Source: Leptolyngbya sp. CCY15150 | Lineage (GTDB): Bacteria; Cyanobacteriota; Cyanobacteriia; RECH01 | DNA: 64,000 bases | NCBI RefSeq assembly: GCF_016888135.1 | Contig: NZ_JACSWB010000172.1 | Span: forward strand, 1 to 64,000 | Direction: 5' to 3' | Shown here: piece by piece, positions 3,738-11,503 of the stretch | Position numbering within the stretch: position 1 is the stretch's first letter | Layout: every line of letters starts with the position of its first letter | The notes under the pieces: generated by a model | Databases searched by the model: none | What the model saw: only the letters and a program-made list of their open reading frames with translations | What the model was told of the DNA's origin: nothing | Program-made: the position numbers and the translations under genes

Positions 3738-4610
3738 TCAAAATAAGCTAAGCTGCTGAGTTTGCTGGACGTGATCCCAGGGTAGGGGCGGCACGGCTAC
3801 GCCAGACCGTTCCAGGCCATGCTGAATGAGTTTGGCAATCCGGGGCGATCGCGCCTCCAATGGGCAGTGGGCAAAGAAATAGACCTGCTGACCCGCCTGC
3901 AGCCAATGGCCGATGTGCTGTACCCATTCTGCTAGGTAGTCCTGATTGCGATCAAGGTCGGGATGGCTAATATAGCGGATGATGACGCGATCGCTGGTGA
4001 CCACTGGCTGCAGCGGCACCGGCGGTTTTTTCCGTTCGGAATGAACCTGGGGATCATCGTCACCATCATAAATAGCGCGGGTATCCAGCAGCACGCGTCC
4101 CACGTGATGCGATCGCAGCAGATCATTGAGCTGCTGGGCATGGGGGTCGCGAAACCAGCCCATGTGCCGCACTTCCAGGCAAAGGGGAACGCGATCGCGG
4201 GGCCAACCCTGGAGAAAGTTGGCTAGATCACTGAGGTACTGGGAACCGTAGCTGGGCGGCAGTTGGGCAAAGCAAGGGCCCAGGCGATCGCCGAGGAGCT
4301 GCATCCGGTCTAGGAAGGCGATCGCATCTGGTAGTTGAGGTGTGAGCAATCCCCCATGGGTGATGGTGCGCGGCAGTTTCAGGCAAAACTGAAAGCCCGG
4401 CGGCGTTTCGTCATGCCAGCGCTGTACCGTGGCAGCGTCGGGGGTGGAATAGAAGGTGGTGTTGCCTTCCACGGCCGTGAGGCGACGACTGTAGAGCGCC
4501 AGAAAATCCTGGGTACGGCTACCCAGGGGAAACAGGTCGCCCACCCAGTCACGATAGGCCCACACGGCACAGCCAATGTGGAAGGATGAGGAACTTGCCT
4601 GCTTGGTCAC
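3738..4610 (-). CDS. DUF72 (YecE-type) family protein, last gene of the suf operon
   Basis: A 290-residue DUF72 protein, a TIM-barrel-like family of unknown function. Typical traits are the opening IGCAVWAYRDWVG, the EGNTTFYSTP segment near residue 50, and the YFFAHCPLEARSPRIA region near the C-terminus (family members usually have NN-H here). The start is a GTG at 4610 with AGGAGT just upstream; that site overlaps the sufS stop codon, so translation is probably coupled to sufS. This placement suggests cotranscription with sufBCDS, but no iron-sulfur role is shown by the sequence. Confidence 0.9.
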   Translation of the reverse strand: MTKQASSSSFHIGCAVWAYRDWVGDLFPLGSRTQDFLALYSRRLTAVEGNTTFYSTPDAATVQRWHDETPPGFQFCLKLPRTITHGGLLTPQLPDAIAFLDRMQLLGDRLGPCFAQLPPSYGSQYLSDLANFLQGWPRDRVPLCLEVRHMGWFRDPHAQQLNDLLRSHHVGRVLLDTRAIYDGDDDPQVHSERKKPPVPLQPVVTSDRVIIRYISHPDLDRNQDYLAEWVQHIGHWLQAGQQVYFFAHCPLEARSPRIAKLIQHGLERSGVAVPPLPWDHVQQTQQLSLF

Positions 4611-4619
4611 AGTACACTC

Positions 4620-5882
4620 CTAGGCAAAGATCTCGCCGAAGAAGGCGATCGCTTCCTTGAGTGCCGCGACGAAGGCATCAATTTCATCGCGGGTGTTGTA
4701 GAAGTACAGGCTAGCCCGTGCCGTAGACTGAGCGCCTACCAGACGATGCAGCGGCTGGGTGCAGTGATGTCCGGCGCGGATGGCAATACCGGCCTGATCC
4801 AAAATAGTAGATAGATCGTGGGGATGGACGGCCCCGGTGGTGAAGGCAGCTAGGGCGGCCCGTCCTGCTCCATCGGCCTGGGGTTGAGGGCCATAGATGC
4901 GCACGTCGGGCAGGATTGCTAACTGTTGAAACAGGTAAGCTGTCAGCTCTTGCTCGTAGGCATGAATGGCGTCCATGCCGATATTGGTCAGGTAGTCTAC
5001 CGCGGCTCCCAGGGCGATCGCTTCAGCAATCGCAGGCGTCCCGGCTTCAAACTTATGGGGCACATCAGCATAGGTGGCATGGTCGAGGAAGACATCGGCG
5101 ATCATTTCCCCACCACCGAGGAATGGCGGCATTTGGCGCAAGAGGTCACGCTTACCGTAGAGGAAGCCAATGCCCGTAGGCGCACACATTTTATGTCCTG
5201 ACGCCACCAGCCAGTCACAGTCCATGGCCTGCACGTCAATGGCCATGTGGGGCACGCTCTGACAAGCATCGATCAACACCCGCGCACCGTGCTGGTGGGC
5301 TATTTGCACAATTTCGTTGACCGGATTGATGCAGCCCAGGGTATTAGACACATGCACCACCGACACCAGCTTGGTCTTATCGGAGATCAGGCTGCGATAG
5401 TGGTCAAGGTCAAATTCTTCGGTCTCCGTCAGTTCCACAAACTTCAGCACAGCCCCCGTGCGCTGGGCTACCAGTTGCCAGGGAATTAAATTACTGTGGT
5501 GTTCCATCACCGACAGAATAATTTCGTCCCCTGCCGTTAGGGTTGTCATACCCCAGGCATAGGCTACGAGGTTGATCGCTTCCGATGCATTGCGAGTATA
5601 GATAATTTCCTCGCGATGAGCAGCATTCACAAACGCTGCCACCTTATCTCGGGCTCCTTCATAGGCATCCGTCGCCCGCGCACTCAGGGTATGCACGCCC
5701 CGATGCACATTGGAGTTATCGAACTGGTAGTAGTGCTGCAGGGCCTCCAGTACGGCGATCGGCTTCTGGGAAGTTGCGGCATTATCAAGATACACCAACG
5801 GATGACCATGCACCTGCTGGTGCAGAATCGGGAAGTCGGGGCGGAGCTTGGCAGCGAGGGTGCGTTCCTGGGTAAGAGTCAT
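4620..5882 (-). CDS. sufS: Cysteine desulfurase SufS (group II)
   Basis: A 420-residue PLP enzyme that takes sulfur from L-cysteine as a persulfide for the SufBCD scaffold. The PLP lysine is in [16 protein letters not shown] near residue 230 and the catalytic cysteine in [10 protein letters not shown] near 370; the group II sequence around that cysteine and the family length agree with SufS rather than IscS. It lies 21 bases after sufD and is followed closely by the DUF72 gene. No SufE-type partner gene is in the window. Confidence 0.96.
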
Positions 5883-5903: not shown

Positions 5904-7241
5904 TTAACGAGCGTGGGCGGAAACGAACTGCGATAGACGCTTCTGAACCGATTCAACAGGAATTTTACCGAGAATCTCAAAGGCAAAAGCATAGATCAAC
6001 AACGATTGGGCACTTTCAGCATCAATGCCTCGACTTTGCAGATAAAATACTTCATCGGCTTCAAGCTGGCTAACCGTGGCTCCGTGGGTGCATTTGACGT
6101 TGTCAGCCACGATCTCAAGCTGGGGTTTGGTGTCTACCCGAGCCTTGGGCGATAGCAGCAAACATCGGTTTAGCTGAGCAGCATCGGTTAACTGGGCTGC
6201 CTGGGGTACATTCACCCTACCGTTGAAGATGGTGTGGGCTTTGTCGTCCACAATGCATTTATGCAGTTGACGACTGCTGCCGTAGGGCTTGGCATAGTTG
6301 ATCAAACTATGGGTGTCGGCTACCTGCTTACCTTGGATCATGGTCAGCCCGTTCATGAGGGTTTCCACCTGCTCGCCGCTGTGGAATACATCTAAATTCC
6401 GGCGCGACAGGGCGGCTCCGAGGCTGATGTCATGAACTCGATAACGAGCGCTCCGAGCTTGGTTCACCACTGTACGGCTCAGATGAAACGCTGTCTCGCT
6501 GTCTTGCTGCAGGCGCACATGGTTGACCCCGGCATTCTCCTCCACCCAGATTTCCGTGACGGAATTGCTGAGGTAGGTTCCTGCATCCAGGCAGGCAAAG
6601 GTTTCCACCAGGGTGAGCGCGCTGTTGGGCTCTGCTACTACTAGGCAGCGCGGTTGAGAAAAGCTGGGGCGATCGCCCCTTGAGAGATAGAGAACATGAA
6701 TCGGTTGAGCGATCGCTTGATTCTTACCTGCCCAAATAATCGCCGCATCCTGCAATCCAGCCGTATTCAAGGTCGCGAAGACATCTTGACCCACCGTTTG
6801 CTGGGCTAGATAGGTCGGCAAGCGATCGCCTAAGCGAGGAGCCACCTCTAGCAGCGACCCCACGGTCACAGCCGCAGGTAGTTCGCCCAGGGTGGATAAG
6901 GTAGGTGCATAGATACCATCAACAAACACCAGTTGAGCGATCGCTTCCGGTACGTCATACTGCGTGAGCGCTTCAGGGGCGATCGCCTCTAGATTGGGCT
7001 GAGCCGCTTCAAAATCTACTGCCAACAGCGAGGATAGATCGGTAAAGCGCCAATCTTCATCCCGCTGAGTGGGTAAGGTTGCCGTTTGCAGTTGGGCAAC
7101 AGCCTGGTGGCGCAGTTCCTTCAGCCAAGCCAGGGTTGCTCCATCCAGCCGCGTTTCATCCACATCCAGCCGCTGACTCAGCAACTGCACGAGATAGGCA
7201 TGGCGATCAACACGAGGCGGCGTTAAGGTAGACGTCTGCAT
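5904..7241 (-). CDS. sufD: Fe-S cluster assembly protein SufD
   Basis: A 445-residue SufD, partner of SufB and SufC in the SufBC2D scaffold complex, with the beta-helix core shared with SufB and the SufBD C-terminal region (IFNGRVNVPQAAQ, NVKCTHGATVSQL, FYLQSRGI). The longest frame begins at 7277, but the ATG at 7241 shares one base with the sufC stop (TAATG), the usual tight coupling, so this start is preferred. The histidine in CTHGAT is in the segment that, in E. coli SufD, contributes to cluster assembly at the SufB-SufD interface. Confidence 0.95.
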   Translation of the reverse strand: MQTSTLTPPRVDRHAYLVQLLSQRLDVDETRLDGATLAWLKELRHQAVAQLQTATLPTQRDEDWRFTDLSSLLAVDFEAAQPNLEAIAPEALTQYDVPEAIAQLVFVDGIYAPTLSTLGELPAAVTVGSLLEVAPRLGDRLPTYLAQQTVGQDVFATLNTAGLQDAAIIWAGKNQAIAQPIHVLYLSRGDRPSFSQPRCLVVAEPNSALTLVETFACLDAGTYLSNSVTEIWVEENAGVNHVRLQQDSETAFHLSRTVVNQARSARYRVHDISLGAALSRRNLDVFHSGEQVETLMNGLTMIQGKQVADTHSLINYAKPYGSSRQLHKCIVDDKAHTIFNGRVNVPQAAQLTDAAQLNRCLLLSPKARVDTKPQLEIVADNVKCTHGATVSQLEADEVFYLQSRGIDAESAQSLLIYAFAFEILGKIPVESVQKRLSQFVSAHAR

Positions 7242-8026
7242 TATTGAACCCCCGCTGCTTCTTGTTCCACAACCCAATCATAGCCGCGCTCTTCGAGCTG
7301 AAATGCCAGAGACTTATCGCCGGTGGTGATAATGCGGCCGCCTTCCATCACGTGGACATAGTCGGGCACGATGTAGTCTAGCAGGCGCTGATAGTGGGTA
7401 ATCAACACCGTGGCATTATCTGGACTGGCAAGTTGATTGACGCCACCCGAGACAATTCTCAAGGCGTCGATGTCTAGACCGGAGTCTGTTTCGTCCAGAA
7501 TGGCTAAGCGAGGTTCCAGAAGCGCCATCTGTAGGATTTCATTGCGCTTCTTTTCACCGCCGGAAAAGCCTTCGTTGACGCTGCGATTGAGAAATTCTGG
7601 CTTCATCTTAACGACGTCCAGCTTATCTTGCACCAGTTCGTCAAAGTCAAAGGCATCCAGTTCTTCTAGCCCCTGATGCTTACGGCGAGAGTTGCAGGCT
7701 ACCCGTAGGAAGTCGATGTTGCTCACACCGGGAATTTCTAGGGGATATTGGAATGCCAGGAAAATTCCGGAGCGCGATCGCTCCTCAGCGGGCAGGTCTA
7801 ACAAGTTCTGACCCTGGTAGATTACTTCACCGCCAGTCACCGTATAGTCGGGATGACCTGCAATCACCTTGGAGAAAGTGCTTTTCCCCGAACCGTTGGG
7901 CCCCATAATGGCGTGGATTTCTCCCGCCCGCACCTCTAGGTTCAGTCCTTTGAGAATTTGGATTCCGTCTACTTCAGCCGTGAGATTACGAACCGACAGA
8001 ATCACCTCAGCGTTGTCATTGATCAT
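7241..8026 (-). CDS. sufC: Fe-S cluster assembly ATPase SufC
   Basis: A 261-residue ABC-type ATPase of the cytosolic Suf system; ATP hydrolysis drives conformational change of the SufBCD scaffold. Walker A is GPNGSGKST near residues 42-50, the signature is SGGEKKRNE near 155, and Walker B with the catalytic acid is [12 protein letters not shown] near 172-184. The DETDSGLD form is typical of SufC, compared with DEPT in transporters. It lies between sufB (80 bases upstream) and sufD (overlapping stop/start). Confidence 0.97.
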
Positions 8027-8106: not shown

Positions 8107-9543
8107 TTAACCTACACTGCCTTCCAGTTTCAGACTCAAGAGGCGATCGGCCTCCACCGCAAATTCCATGGGCAGTTGGTTAAACACATCCTTACAGAAG
8201 CCGCTGATCATCATCGAAATGGCGTCTTCCATGGAAATGCCCCGCTGCAGGAAGTAGAACAGTTGGTCTTCGCCAATCTTCGAGGTCGAGGCCTCGTGCT
8301 CCACCTTGCTGGTGTTGTTTTGAACCTGAATGTAGGGGAAGGTGTTAGCCTGGGCGCGATCGCCAATCAGCATCGAATCACACTGGGAATAGTTGCGGGC
8401 TCCTTCAGCCTTGGGGCCCACTTTCACCAAGCCACGATAGCTATTTTGCGATCGCCCGGCGGAAATTCCCTTGGAGATAATCGTGCTGCGGGTGTTTTTG
8501 CCCACATGCACCATCTTGGTGCCGGTATCGGCCTGCTGGCAGTTGTTGGTTAGCGCTACGGAGTAAAACTCACCCACGGAGTTGTCACCCACCAGCACAC
8601 AACTCGGATATTTCCAGGTGATCGCCGATCCAGTCTCAACTTGAGTCCAAGAGATCTTAGAATTCTTGCCCTGGCAGAGACCGCGCTTGGTGACGAAGTT
8701 GTAGATGCCGCCCTTGCCGTTTTCGTCGCCCGCAAACCAGTTTTGCACCGTGGAGTATTTGATGTCGGCGTTGTCGAGCGCCACCAGTTCAACCACTGCC
8801 GCGTGGAGCTGGTTGGTGTCAAACATGGGAGCAGTGCAGCCTTCTAGGTAGCTGACCGAGCTGCCCTCTTCCGCCACAATCAAGGTGCGCTCAAACTGTC
8901 CCGAATCGCCGTTGTTAATCCGGAAGTAGGTGGATAGCTCCATGGGACAACGGGTGTTTTTGGGAATGTAGACAAACGACCCATCGGAAAAGACCGCTGC
9001 GTTGAGCGCGGCAAAGTAGTTGTCCCCAGCCGGCACCACCGTACCCAGATACTTTTGGATCAAATCAGGATGGTGCTGCAGGGCTTCGGAGATGGAGCAG
9101 AAAATCACGCCTTCTTCCGCAAGCTTTTCCTTAAACGTAGTGGCCACCGACACGCTGTCGAAAATGGCGTCTACTGCCACATTGGAGAGGCGCTTTTGCT
9201 CCGAAAGGGGAATTCCCAGCTTTTCGAAGGTTTCCAGCAGGGTGGGATCGACGTCGTCTAAACTCTGAAGCTTGTCTTTTTTCTTCGGGGCAGAATAGTA
9301 GACAATTTTTTGATAGTCAATGGGGGGATAGCTGACGTGGGGCCAGGTGGGTTCCGTCATCTTCAGCCAGTGGCGATAGGCTTTGAGACGAAACTCTAGC
9401 ATGAACTCCGGCTCATTCTTTTTGGCAGAGATCAGCCGCACAACATCTTCGCTGAGACCCGCAGGAATCGAGTCTGCTTCGATGTCGGTGATGAAGCCAT
9501 ACTTGTAGGGCTGATTAACAAGGGTCTTAACGGATGCAGACAT
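8107..9543 (-). CDS. sufB: Fe-S cluster assembly scaffold protein SufB
   Basis: A 478-residue SufB, the subunit on which nascent clusters form. The start at 9543 ([17 protein letters not shown]) is chosen over the longer frame from 9612 because the extra 23 residues are proline-rich and unlike the family, and this start gives the standard length. Conserved stretches include [32 protein letters not shown], and [12 protein letters not shown] with the cysteine equivalent to that receiving sulfur from SufS. It sits 91 bases downstream of ftrC, with sufC, sufD and sufS following. Confidence 0.96.
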
Positions 9544-9634
9544 GGGCGGTGTTCTCCGGTGGTCTCCAAAACATGGGTAGAGCAGTGGGGGAGCGGGATA
9601 CCACAATGGCACCCGACCCCTGCTGAGGTGTCAA

Positions 9635-9994
9635 TTAGTATTGACTGGTGGTTGTGCGAATTTCTTCGAAGGAAATATCTTGGCGATCGCCTGCGAAGTC
9701 GTTTTCAGGGGTTAGAAACAACATGCAGTGGCACTCTTTGCGCTCTCGCATGGGCACACAGGGGCAGTTCCAGTAAGCAGCGGCAGCCTCGGCCTCCTTG
9801 TCTTCGTAGTGGCGGCAGGGACAAAGGGGCGCACCAAGCTCATCTTTGTGCTTAGCCAACCCTTCAATCACCACGGCAGTCACGCCCGGATCGACACAAA
9901 AATAGGTTCCGGTACGCTGGGCATAGGTCTCGGAAAAGTGCCGCATGGCTTCGAGACTTTTATCAGTGGCTTGAGATTGAGTGGATGTAGTCAT
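9635..9994 (-). CDS. ftrC: Ferredoxin-thioredoxin reductase catalytic subunit
   Basis: A 119-residue catalytic (beta) subunit of ferredoxin-thioredoxin reductase. Its [4Fe-4S] cluster and adjacent redox-active disulfide pass electrons from photosynthetic ferredoxin to thioredoxin. The cysteine pattern is complete: FCVDP, CPCRHY, CPC and CHCM. The start at 9994 (MTTSTQSQ) is chosen because the longer frame from 10084 would read through the first SufR operator and exceeds the normal length of about 115-120. It is the first gene after the sufR-suf regulatory region and points the same way as sufBCDS, which suggests SufR control. The variable subunit gene (ftrV) is not in the window. Confidence 0.95.
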   Translation of the reverse strand: MTTSTQSQATDKSLEAMRHFSETYAQRTGTYFCVDPGVTAVVIEGLAKHKDELGAPLCPCRHYEDKEAEAAAAYWNCPCVPMRERKECHCMLFLTPENDFAGDRQDISFEEIRTTTSQY

Positions 9995-10062
9995 GGAATC
10001 AGCTTCTGTATCGTGATCAAAATTCAAACCGACACGACGGTCGATCGCCCCTATAATTAAAA

Positions 10063-10076
10063 CAACGTACTTGTTG
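10063..10076. promoter_or_regulatory. SufR operator, site 1 (CAAC-N6-GTTG)
   Basis: CAAC at 10063-10066 and GTTG at 10073-10076 form a perfect inverted repeat with a 6-base spacer. This is the established SufR recognition pattern from work on the Synechocystis repressor. It is the copy closer to ftrC, and AT-rich sequence that could serve as the -10 of the ftrC-suf transcript (around 10051-10059) lies next to it. Confidence 0.85.
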
Positions 10077-10102
10077 CTTAACATAATTGTAGGCTACTTT
10101 AA

Positions 10103-10116
10103 CAACAGTAAGGTTG
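10103..10116. promoter_or_regulatory. SufR operator, site 2 (CAAC-N6-GTTG)
   Basis: A second perfect CAAC-N6-GTTG (10103-10106 and 10113-10116), exactly 40 bases centre to centre from site 1, about four helical turns. It is closer to sufR and would overlap the -35 position of a promoter using TAATAT at 10125-10130 as its -10, so it could mediate sufR autoregulation. The promoter assignment is an inference. Confidence 0.85.
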
Positions 10117-10203
10117 TCAAAGTCTAATATTGAGATTTTGTGATGATTCTTGATTGGCTCAGCAACCTAATTTGCGTCAGTGAACGACTAGCACTCCCCG
10201 ACG

Positions 10204-10917
10204 ATGATGGCCACTAAGCAGCACCCCTCCACCAAACAAGACATCCTCTACTACCTCCTGAAGCAAGGGCAAGCCAAGGCTCAGGATCTAGCAGATGCTC
10301 TCAATATCAGCCCTCAGGCGATTCGCCGACACCTCAAAGATCTAGAAGATGAAGGTTTGATCCAACATCATCCAGAGCAGACAGGTATGGGGCGTCCGCA
10401 ACATATTTATGGGCTCAGCCAGGAGGGGCGCGATCGCCTGCCAGCTAAATATGATGACTTTGCCCTATCGTTGCTCGACACCCTCACCGAGACCGTCGGT
10501 CGGGAACAAGTGGGAACAATTTTGCGCAAACAATGGGAGCGCAAAGCTCAAGAATACCGCGATCGCGTGGGCAACGGATCGGTGGAGGAGCGGGTAGCCA
10601 ACTTGGTGAAGCTGCGGCAGGCAGAAGGCTACATGGCGGAGTGGTATTCGGTGGAGCCGGAGGATGAATCGGTGCCAGACGCTGCCCATCAAGATCAGGA
10701 CGATGCCCCAGCGGAGCAGTATGTGATTACGGAATACAACTGCGCCATTTCCCACATTGCGGAGTCGTTTCCCAGCGTCTGTGGCCATGAACTAGAGATG
10801 TTTGAAATTGCCCTAGAGGGCTGCGCCGTGAAGCGCACGCACTGGTTGGTGAATGGTGAGCATCGCTGTGGATACTTGATTCGCTCCACCAGCGATCGCC
10901 CCTCCCAACACCATTAA
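10204..10917 (+). CDS. sufR: SufR, Fe-S-sensing repressor of the suf operon
   Basis: A 237-residue DeoR/ArsR-like regulator. The N-terminal winged helix-turn-helix (about residues 13-65, ILYYLLKQGQAKAQDLADAL then SPQAIRRHLKDLE) binds DNA. The C-terminal part has four cysteines spaced C-x12-C-x13-C-x14-C (CAISH...VCGHE...GCAVK...RCGYL), the cluster-binding pattern of SufR. The start may be either of two adjacent ATGs (10204 or 10207). It is divergent from ftrC-sufBCDS with two CAAC-N6-GTTG operators between, the arrangement known for cyanobacterial SufR, which represses suf and itself when clusters are sufficient. Confidence 0.96.
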   Translation: MMATKQHPSTKQDILYYLLKQGQAKAQDLADALNISPQAIRRHLKDLEDEGLIQHHPEQTGMGRPQHIYGLSQEGRDRLPAKYDDFALSLLDTLTETVGREQVGTILRKQWERKAQEYRDRVGNGSVEERVANLVKLRQAEGYMAEWYSVEPEDESVPDAAHQDQDDAPAEQYVITEYNCAISHIAESFPSVCGHELEMFEIALEGCAVKRTHWLVNGEHRCGYLIRSTSDRPSQHH

Positions 10918-11107
10918 GCGACGTCAACGTCTTCCTAACCGGCTGCTAGACCAAGGATCCCGTAGCCTGACCTCAGGAGCACTCCCAGTTCCTGGCAGCC
11001 AGGCGAGAATGGATGTGGGGTGATATCCTGTGTGGTGATAGTCGTAGAGAGGGATCGGGCCCTAGACCCTGAGCATAGACGCAACGATGATCCCCAATGA
11101 GGATGCT

Positions 11108-11503
11108 ATGACCGAGTTTCAAACCCCCGAATTTTTGACGCCGGAGGAATGCGCGGCGGTAGACCAGGCGCTGCTGTCATCCCGCGATAAGTTTTCCACC
11201 CGAGTGGCCATCTACTCCCTGCGATCGCTGAAGCAGATTGCCCAGGATACCGGCCAGCCCATCGAACAGATTGCCACGGCTGAGGTGGCGGAATGGGTGC
11301 GGCAAGATCGTACCAATCAGGCAGACCTGGAGATCGATGCTGGCTTTATTCGGTTTTTCACCCAGCTTGTGCTGTCGTCGCTAAAACCCCTACGGCAGCT
11401 CGCAGAACAGGAGCAGGTGGCGATCGCTGAGCTGCAGCCAGAGCAAATCATAGCTTGGTTTGAGCAGGTGGCTAAGCAACGGATTGAGCAGGAGTCTCGG
11501 TAG
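11108..11503 (+). CDS. Conserved hypothetical protein, helical, cytosolic
   Basis: A 131-residue acidic protein predicted to be mostly alpha-helical, without signal peptide or membrane segment. I do not recognise a named domain. The start at 11108 (MTEFQTPEFLTPEE) is preferred over 11087. The sequence has two similar halves in pattern: SLRSLKQIAQDTGQPIEQIATAEVAEWV and SLKPLRQLAEQEQVAIAELQPEQIIAWF, suggesting an internal helical repeat. It ends one base before the start of the small membrane protein gene at 11505, so the two are probably cotranscribed. Confidence 0.75.
   Translation: MTEFQTPEFLTPEECAAVDQALLSSRDKFSTRVAIYSLRSLKQIAQDTGQPIEQIATAEVAEWVRQDRTNQADLEIDAGFIRFFTQLVLSSLKPLRQLAEQEQVAIAELQPEQIIAWFEQVAKQRIEQESR

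Follow-up and report, generated by a model that had tools for sequence, protein, structure and literature searches.

ftrC lies behind a conserved pair of putative SufR operators in Leptolyngbya sp. CCY15150 and in part of the cyanobacteria

The window analysed here is the whole 64 kb stretch of DNA from Leptolyngbya sp. CCY15150 (64,000 nucleotides, contig NZ_JACSWB010000172.1). Within it, sufR is divergent from ftrC, which heads a minus-strand run continued by sufB, sufC, sufD and a sufS-like open reading frame (ORF). The features of the locus are the following:

4620 to 5882, minus strand: sufS-like ORF of 420 aa, ending the run (ORF listing, assigned by eye)
5904 to 7238, minus strand: sufD (TIGR01981, 293 bits, model passed)
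7241 to 8026, minus strand: sufC (TIGR01978, 360 bits, model passed)
8107 to 9543, minus strand: sufB (NF008773, 912 bits, model passed)
9544 to 9634, minus strand: ftrC-sufB gap of 91 bp (consensus scan)
9635 to 9994, minus strand: ftrC, catalytic subunit of ferredoxin-thioredoxin reductase (FTR), 119 aa (PF02943, 151 bits versus 22)
10029 to 10057, plus strand: proposed sufR promoter CCGACA-N17-TATAAT, running into the proximal operator (promoter scan)
10063 to 10076, no strand assigned: core CAAC-N6-GTTG of the proximal operator, flanked by TTAAG and TTTTAATTATA on the ftrC strand
10091 to 10120, minus strand: proposed ftrC-suf promoter, TTGACA (10115-10120), 18 bp spacer, TAGCCT (10091-10096)
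10098 to 10121, minus strand: distal operator TTTGACAAC-N6-GTTGTTAAA, core CAAC-N6-GTTG at 10103-10116
10204 to 10917, plus strand: sufR, Fe-S-sensing repressor, 237 aa (TIGR02702, 312.2 bits, cut-off 178.8)

The original prediction that ftrC leads a sufBCDS cluster holds, sufB, sufC and sufD by their models and sufS by eye. FtrC displays the motifs CPC, CPC and CHC, its cysteines C46, C48, C65, C67, C76 and C78 are invariant over 23 rows, and its gene is single copy, with one match in the genome. Judging from the onset of FtrC homology, the ATG at 9994 is likely the start codon; the long form of the ORF (9635-10084) would extend across the proximal operator. A consensus scan of the 91 bp gap between ftrC and sufB, which is weak evidence, returned no operator, terminator-like or promoter-like site, as expected for genes separated neither by a terminator nor by a promoter. 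The window SufR is assigned to TIGR02702 and is predicted to bind a [4Fe-4S] cluster and to bind DNA in a cluster-dependent manner. It contains the pattern CX12CX13CX14C, whose spacing we take to be that of SufR's conserved C-terminal cysteines. This pattern is exact in 105 of the 121 SufR rows, and three of its four columns are Cys in all 121.

Only the catalytic, cluster-bearing subunit of FTR is encoded in the cassette. The ftrV gene, also single, is located apart from it (G000:C244:62464-62664), and no SufR motif was found when we looked for one at that locus.

Two neighbouring ORFs were also recorded. One of 290 aa (3738-4610, minus strand) immediately follows the sufS-like ORF in the same orientation and is possibly a member of the operon. 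The other, of 138 aa (11087-11503, plus strand), lies just 3' of sufR without any Pfam or NCBIfam match; 28 of the 80 named loci have a homologue of it upstream of ftrC, and it could correspond to an uncharacterised SUF neighbour to which a review (PMC13421787) refers.

Read on the ftrC strand, the gap between the divergent genes has the organisation TTTGACAAC-N6-GTTGTTAAAG-TAGCCT-ACAAT...TTAAG-CAAC-N6-GTTG-TTTTAATTATA. The distal operator overlaps the -35 element of the proposed ftrC promoter and fills most of its spacer, and the proximal operator abuts the TATAAT -10 element on the sufR strand. With its 18 bp spacer and its poor -10 TAGCCT, the proposed ftrC promoter is not a textbook one, and a promoter scan of positions 9400-10400 did not list it. 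The combination TTGACA-N18-TANNNT is found in 41 of 56 suf promoters of linked loci (sufR and ftrC head to head) and in 37 of 60 unlinked ones, for 0.1-0.15 expected in shuffles, a count that leaves out five loci of family f2 described below. SufR might control only sufR and sufBCDS, with ftrC expressed mainly from an unregulated promoter of its own and the operators just happening to be close by. Promoters of cyanobacteria are difficult to predict and a second -10-like element, TACAAT, is located at 10086-10091 on the ftrC strand, but both -10 candidates fall between the two operators, the sole promoter-like match in 9400-10400 is that of sufR, on the opposite strand, and the cassette is the same as that driving sufB in other genomes, so that we consider this possibility very improbable. 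A weak terminator-like hairpin was detected in the ftrC leader (10027-10046, 7 pairs of which 3 G-C; 0.9 expected by chance), and the same scanned region contains no tandem repeat. Searched as one fixed pattern, a TATAAT-like element beside the proximal operator is present in 44 of 56 linked versus 5 of 60 unlinked loci, hinting at a different sufR promoter in the two groups.

As the original prediction had it, two CAAC-N6-GTTG sites lie between sufR and ftrC; their cores start at 10063 and 10103, exactly 40 bases apart, and the window contains no others. Shuffling the whole window gave a chance mean of 0.92 sites and at least two sites in 16 of 100 shuffles, so the window count is not remarkable in itself. 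Genome-wide, 112 sites were counted versus 120 for a reversed control pattern. Since this frequency is at background, a single site means nothing, and enrichment of the single motif was rejected as evidence. The argument therefore rests on the pair, its placement and its conservation: at the site density of the genome, the probability of two sites within the 209 bp gap is about 8e-6. Apart from the distal operator, no site in the genome comes within 2 mismatches of the extended consensus. For this reason, and because the ftrV locus has no motif, we rejected a wider local SufR regulon.

To follow the arrangement, 290 genomes of the class were searched. A match to SufR was found in 265 of them (258 over the cut-off) and ftrC in 263. 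The order sufR-ftrC-sufB on which the original prediction was built is widespread: of the 263 ftrC genomes, 153, representing 73 of 122 genera, have sufR and ftrC head to head and no more than 2 kb apart, and sufB comes next in all 61 linked loci sampled, window included, after a gap of 8-270 bp (median 82) in which no operator was found. In 105 genomes the two genes are not head to head, and 5 genomes offer no SufR place (4 without any match, 1 with a weak match failing E 1e-20). Two of these 105, G041 and G220, likely reflect contig breaks; they were set aside from the unlinked loci while still counted as not head to head in the 153/263 figure. From the other 103 genomes, with a limited number per genus, we sampled 78 genomes and 79 loci, of which one (L025) had no upstream sequence, leaving 78 unlinked ftrC loci to be scored; the sufR regions were taken for 60 of these 78 genomes. 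The linked sample consisted of one genome each from 60 genera, out of 72 when the genus of the window is set apart; the window itself makes the 61st locus. One genome, G183, encodes two SufR genes (C3:2853583-2854200 and C3:3172191-3172808).

Of the 60 linked loci, 55 have an exact operator in the 400 bp preceding ftrC (42 have two or more), and 56 of the 60 loci where ftrC is elsewhere have one in the 400 bp preceding sufR. In the latter genomes, the same promoter-operator cassette directly precedes sufB, which was found beside sufR in 56 of the 60 unlinked sufR regions (four showed none). The 400 bp upstream of unlinked ftrC genes contain an exact operator in 0 of 78 cases. Eight control palindromes were found in 0-1 linked, 0-3 unlinked sufR and 0 unlinked ftrC loci. 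Degenerate operators at unlinked ftrC genes were rejected, none being credible: 8 of 78 loci have a match within 1 mismatch, versus 3-15 of 78 for control palindromes. Named loci (n=80), which overlap the coded set and are not independent of it, gave the operator in 37/37 linked loci and 0/43 others, one of these 43 reaching a contig end; among them, Nostocaceae and Calotrichaceae are unlinked and Leptolyngbyaceae linked. The anatomy of the cassette, its conservation and its dependence on position are direct observations. The bare pattern being at genome background, the two operators of the window could be chance matches, but the probability calculated for the pair and the 55/60 and 56/60 loci across families make this extremely improbable. 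In one linked locus, L137 (genome G270), the ftrC match is split by an internal stop and the gene may be broken; the operators remain.

Because no operator is found at unlinked ftrC genes, control by SufR appears tied to where ftrC is located. In some lineages only, ftrC would thus be a member of the SufR regulon owing to its position, and not through an operator of its own. For the window, the predicted membership of ftrC in the regulon stands in this positional sense: the operator pair embeds a putative sigma-70-type promoter, and the cassette is conserved across families. The proposed tie between cluster supply and thioredoxin appears lineage-bound and does not extend to a general cyanobacterial rule, given the 0/78 count.

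The five linked loci lacking an exact CAAC-N6-GTTG all belong to family f2. Loci of this family carry GAAAC-N6-GTTTC instead (L106, L118, L121, L128, L132 and L286-L289). In whole-genome searches, this motif was located at most 450 bp upstream of sufR in each of the 26 f2 genomes that have SufR (ftrC is present in 22 of them and absent from 4), and in two of the 26 it is the sole copy in the genome; it was found upstream of none of 115 sufR genes in other families. The f2 SufR proteins exhibit the helix SVQ(A/V)(M/V/I)RRHLR(S/G)L in 9/9 proteins read. The R and then the S or G at those two helix places occur in 0 of 116 non-f2 rows, one row being truncated there. From winged-helix proteins in general, we take this stretch to be the recognition helix. 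It is likely that SufR and its operator changed together in f2, from CAAC-N6-GTTG to GAAAC-N6-GTTTC, the 6 bp spacer being unchanged, and from the helix SPQAIRRHLKDL to SVQ(A/V)(M/V/I)RRHLR(S/G)L, control of the suf promoter, and of ftrC where still present, being carried across. By inference, f2 corresponds to the picocyanobacterial Synechococcus/Cyanobium group, because its members without ftrC have small genomes of 1.6-1.9 Mb and Prochlorococcus also lacks ftrC according to the accessible parts of two papers (PMC3441193, PMC2441476). Four f2 genomes (G063, G227, G251 and G276) keep SufR and the operator beside sufB, with no ftrC found. In L106 only, the stretch from the f2 operator to ftrC contains a further perfect inverted repeat, GTAATCAGA-N7-TCTGATTAC. 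Nothing on the f2 operator was found in the literature searched on SufR, a search whose reach excluded most subscription papers and RegPrecise. Given the f2 switch, the PCC 6803 motif should not be relied on in scans of picocyanobacteria.

When mapped on a SufR+SufB tree (121 rows), the linked or unlinked state requires 4 changes, for a mean of 40.8 after shuffling. The tree is a quick one, with many weak forks and a root assumed on family f4, so that gain and loss of the linkage are not told apart by it; as most of its early branches are linked, it suggests that the sufR-ftrC linkage is old and was lost a few times.

Taken together, the window very probably contains one SufR-controlled promoter driving ftrC-sufB-sufC-sufD-sufS through two operators, ftrC being included by position. 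Points against it are the weak hairpin in the ftrC leader, the imperfect promoter and the five f2 loci without an exact CAAC-N6-GTTG. SufR proteins holding [4Fe-4S] clusters would bind the two operators, about 40 bp apart. At the distal operator, SufR would block the -35 element and spacer of the ftrC-suf promoter and, at the proximal operator, beside the sufR -10 element, it would repress sufR itself. As the operators overlap or adjoin both promoters, SufR would repress the operon as well as its own gene. Loss or reduction of the cluster would free the promoter, and FtrC and the assembly machine would be raised together. The arrangement that places ftrC in the regulon would be an old one, which a few lineages no longer have. 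We infer SufR binding, repression and ftrC-suf co-transcription in Leptolyngbya, as well as any benefit of the arrangement.

The reason for the inclusion of ftrC is a separate question from the mechanism. ftrC could be regulated merely because it sits between the promoter and sufB, the coupling of cluster supply to thioredoxin control not being under selection. Consistent with this, 0/78 unlinked ftrC genes keep the operator (0/43 in the named set), and whole families are unlinked, so that SufR control of ftrC is dispensable; however, the link is kept across 73/122 genera with only 4 changes on the 121-row tree, and is kept in f2 despite the changed operator. We regard such positional hitch-hiking as quite possible, if slightly short of probable, and it can be combined with a single SufR-controlled promoter.

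The signal can also be read in more than one way. The original prediction was that FTR is raised when clusters are scarce, which becomes one of several readings: according to the available text of PMC13421787 and PMC7058544, SufR may be released by iron limitation and oxidative stress as well as when its cluster is reduced or light is high. The signal could be over-reduction, oxidative stress or high light, the extra FTR feeding thioredoxin-dependent peroxidases and the Calvin cycle. In the same sources, reduced [4Fe-4S]1+ SufR binds DNA less well (PMC13421787) and high light derepresses one suf promoter (PMC7058544). More of a cluster-requiring enzyme during a cluster shortage adds demand, and the supply of FTR could be of greater importance during over-reduction or peroxide exposure. 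Against this, suf is also induced by iron limitation (PMC13421787, PMC7058544, accessible portions). Such a signal is a serious candidate falling just below an even chance, and is compatible with the one-promoter mechanism. Trichodesmium expression data, in which the FTR gene Tery_1567 goes up and suf goes down with iron, were set aside since the accessible text of PMC12090762 does not name the FTR subunit.

Under the one-promoter mechanism, SufR control of FTR is expected in linked species (Leptolyngbya-like and PCC 7942-like) and should be absent where ftrC is elsewhere, as in the Nostoc, Calothrix and Anabaena genomes examined. Linked and unlinked species provide a natural control for the value of coupling cluster supply to thioredoxin reduction.

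The SufR-ftrC link itself is already known from the parts available of PMC13421787 and PMC2662882. The former, a 2026 review citing RegPrecise and a 2025 preprint, states that ftrC is co-transcribed with suf in PCC 7942, implicates SufR in its control and describes the ftrC-suf neighbourhood as common; the latter (2009) places ftrC between sufR and sufB in Synechococcus 6301, with a conserved element in the gap. The main text of Vijayan 2011 (PMC3219970) does not mention ftrC, sufB or sufR, and an Arthrospira paper (PMC4398503) lists sufR with nothing on ftrC. In Synechocystis PCC 6803, SufR represses sufBCDS and sufR (Wang 2004 and Shen 2007, as reported in the available text of PMC13421787, PMC7058544 and PMC4755962). 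Leptolyngbya shares with it the regulator family, the divergent sufR, the CAAC-N6-GTTG operators and the sufBCDS order, but has ftrC first, inserted between the operators and sufB. It resembles Synechococcus elongatus PCC 7942 / 6301 in having ftrC between sufR and sufB, an arrangement for which SufR control is proposed and co-transcription with suf stated there, in the portions of these sources available, whereas Leptolyngbya is another organism, studied here by sequence analysis. To the PCC 7942 / 6301 reports, our study adds the f2 operator, the census of coded genomes and the 0/78 count for ftrC genes located elsewhere.
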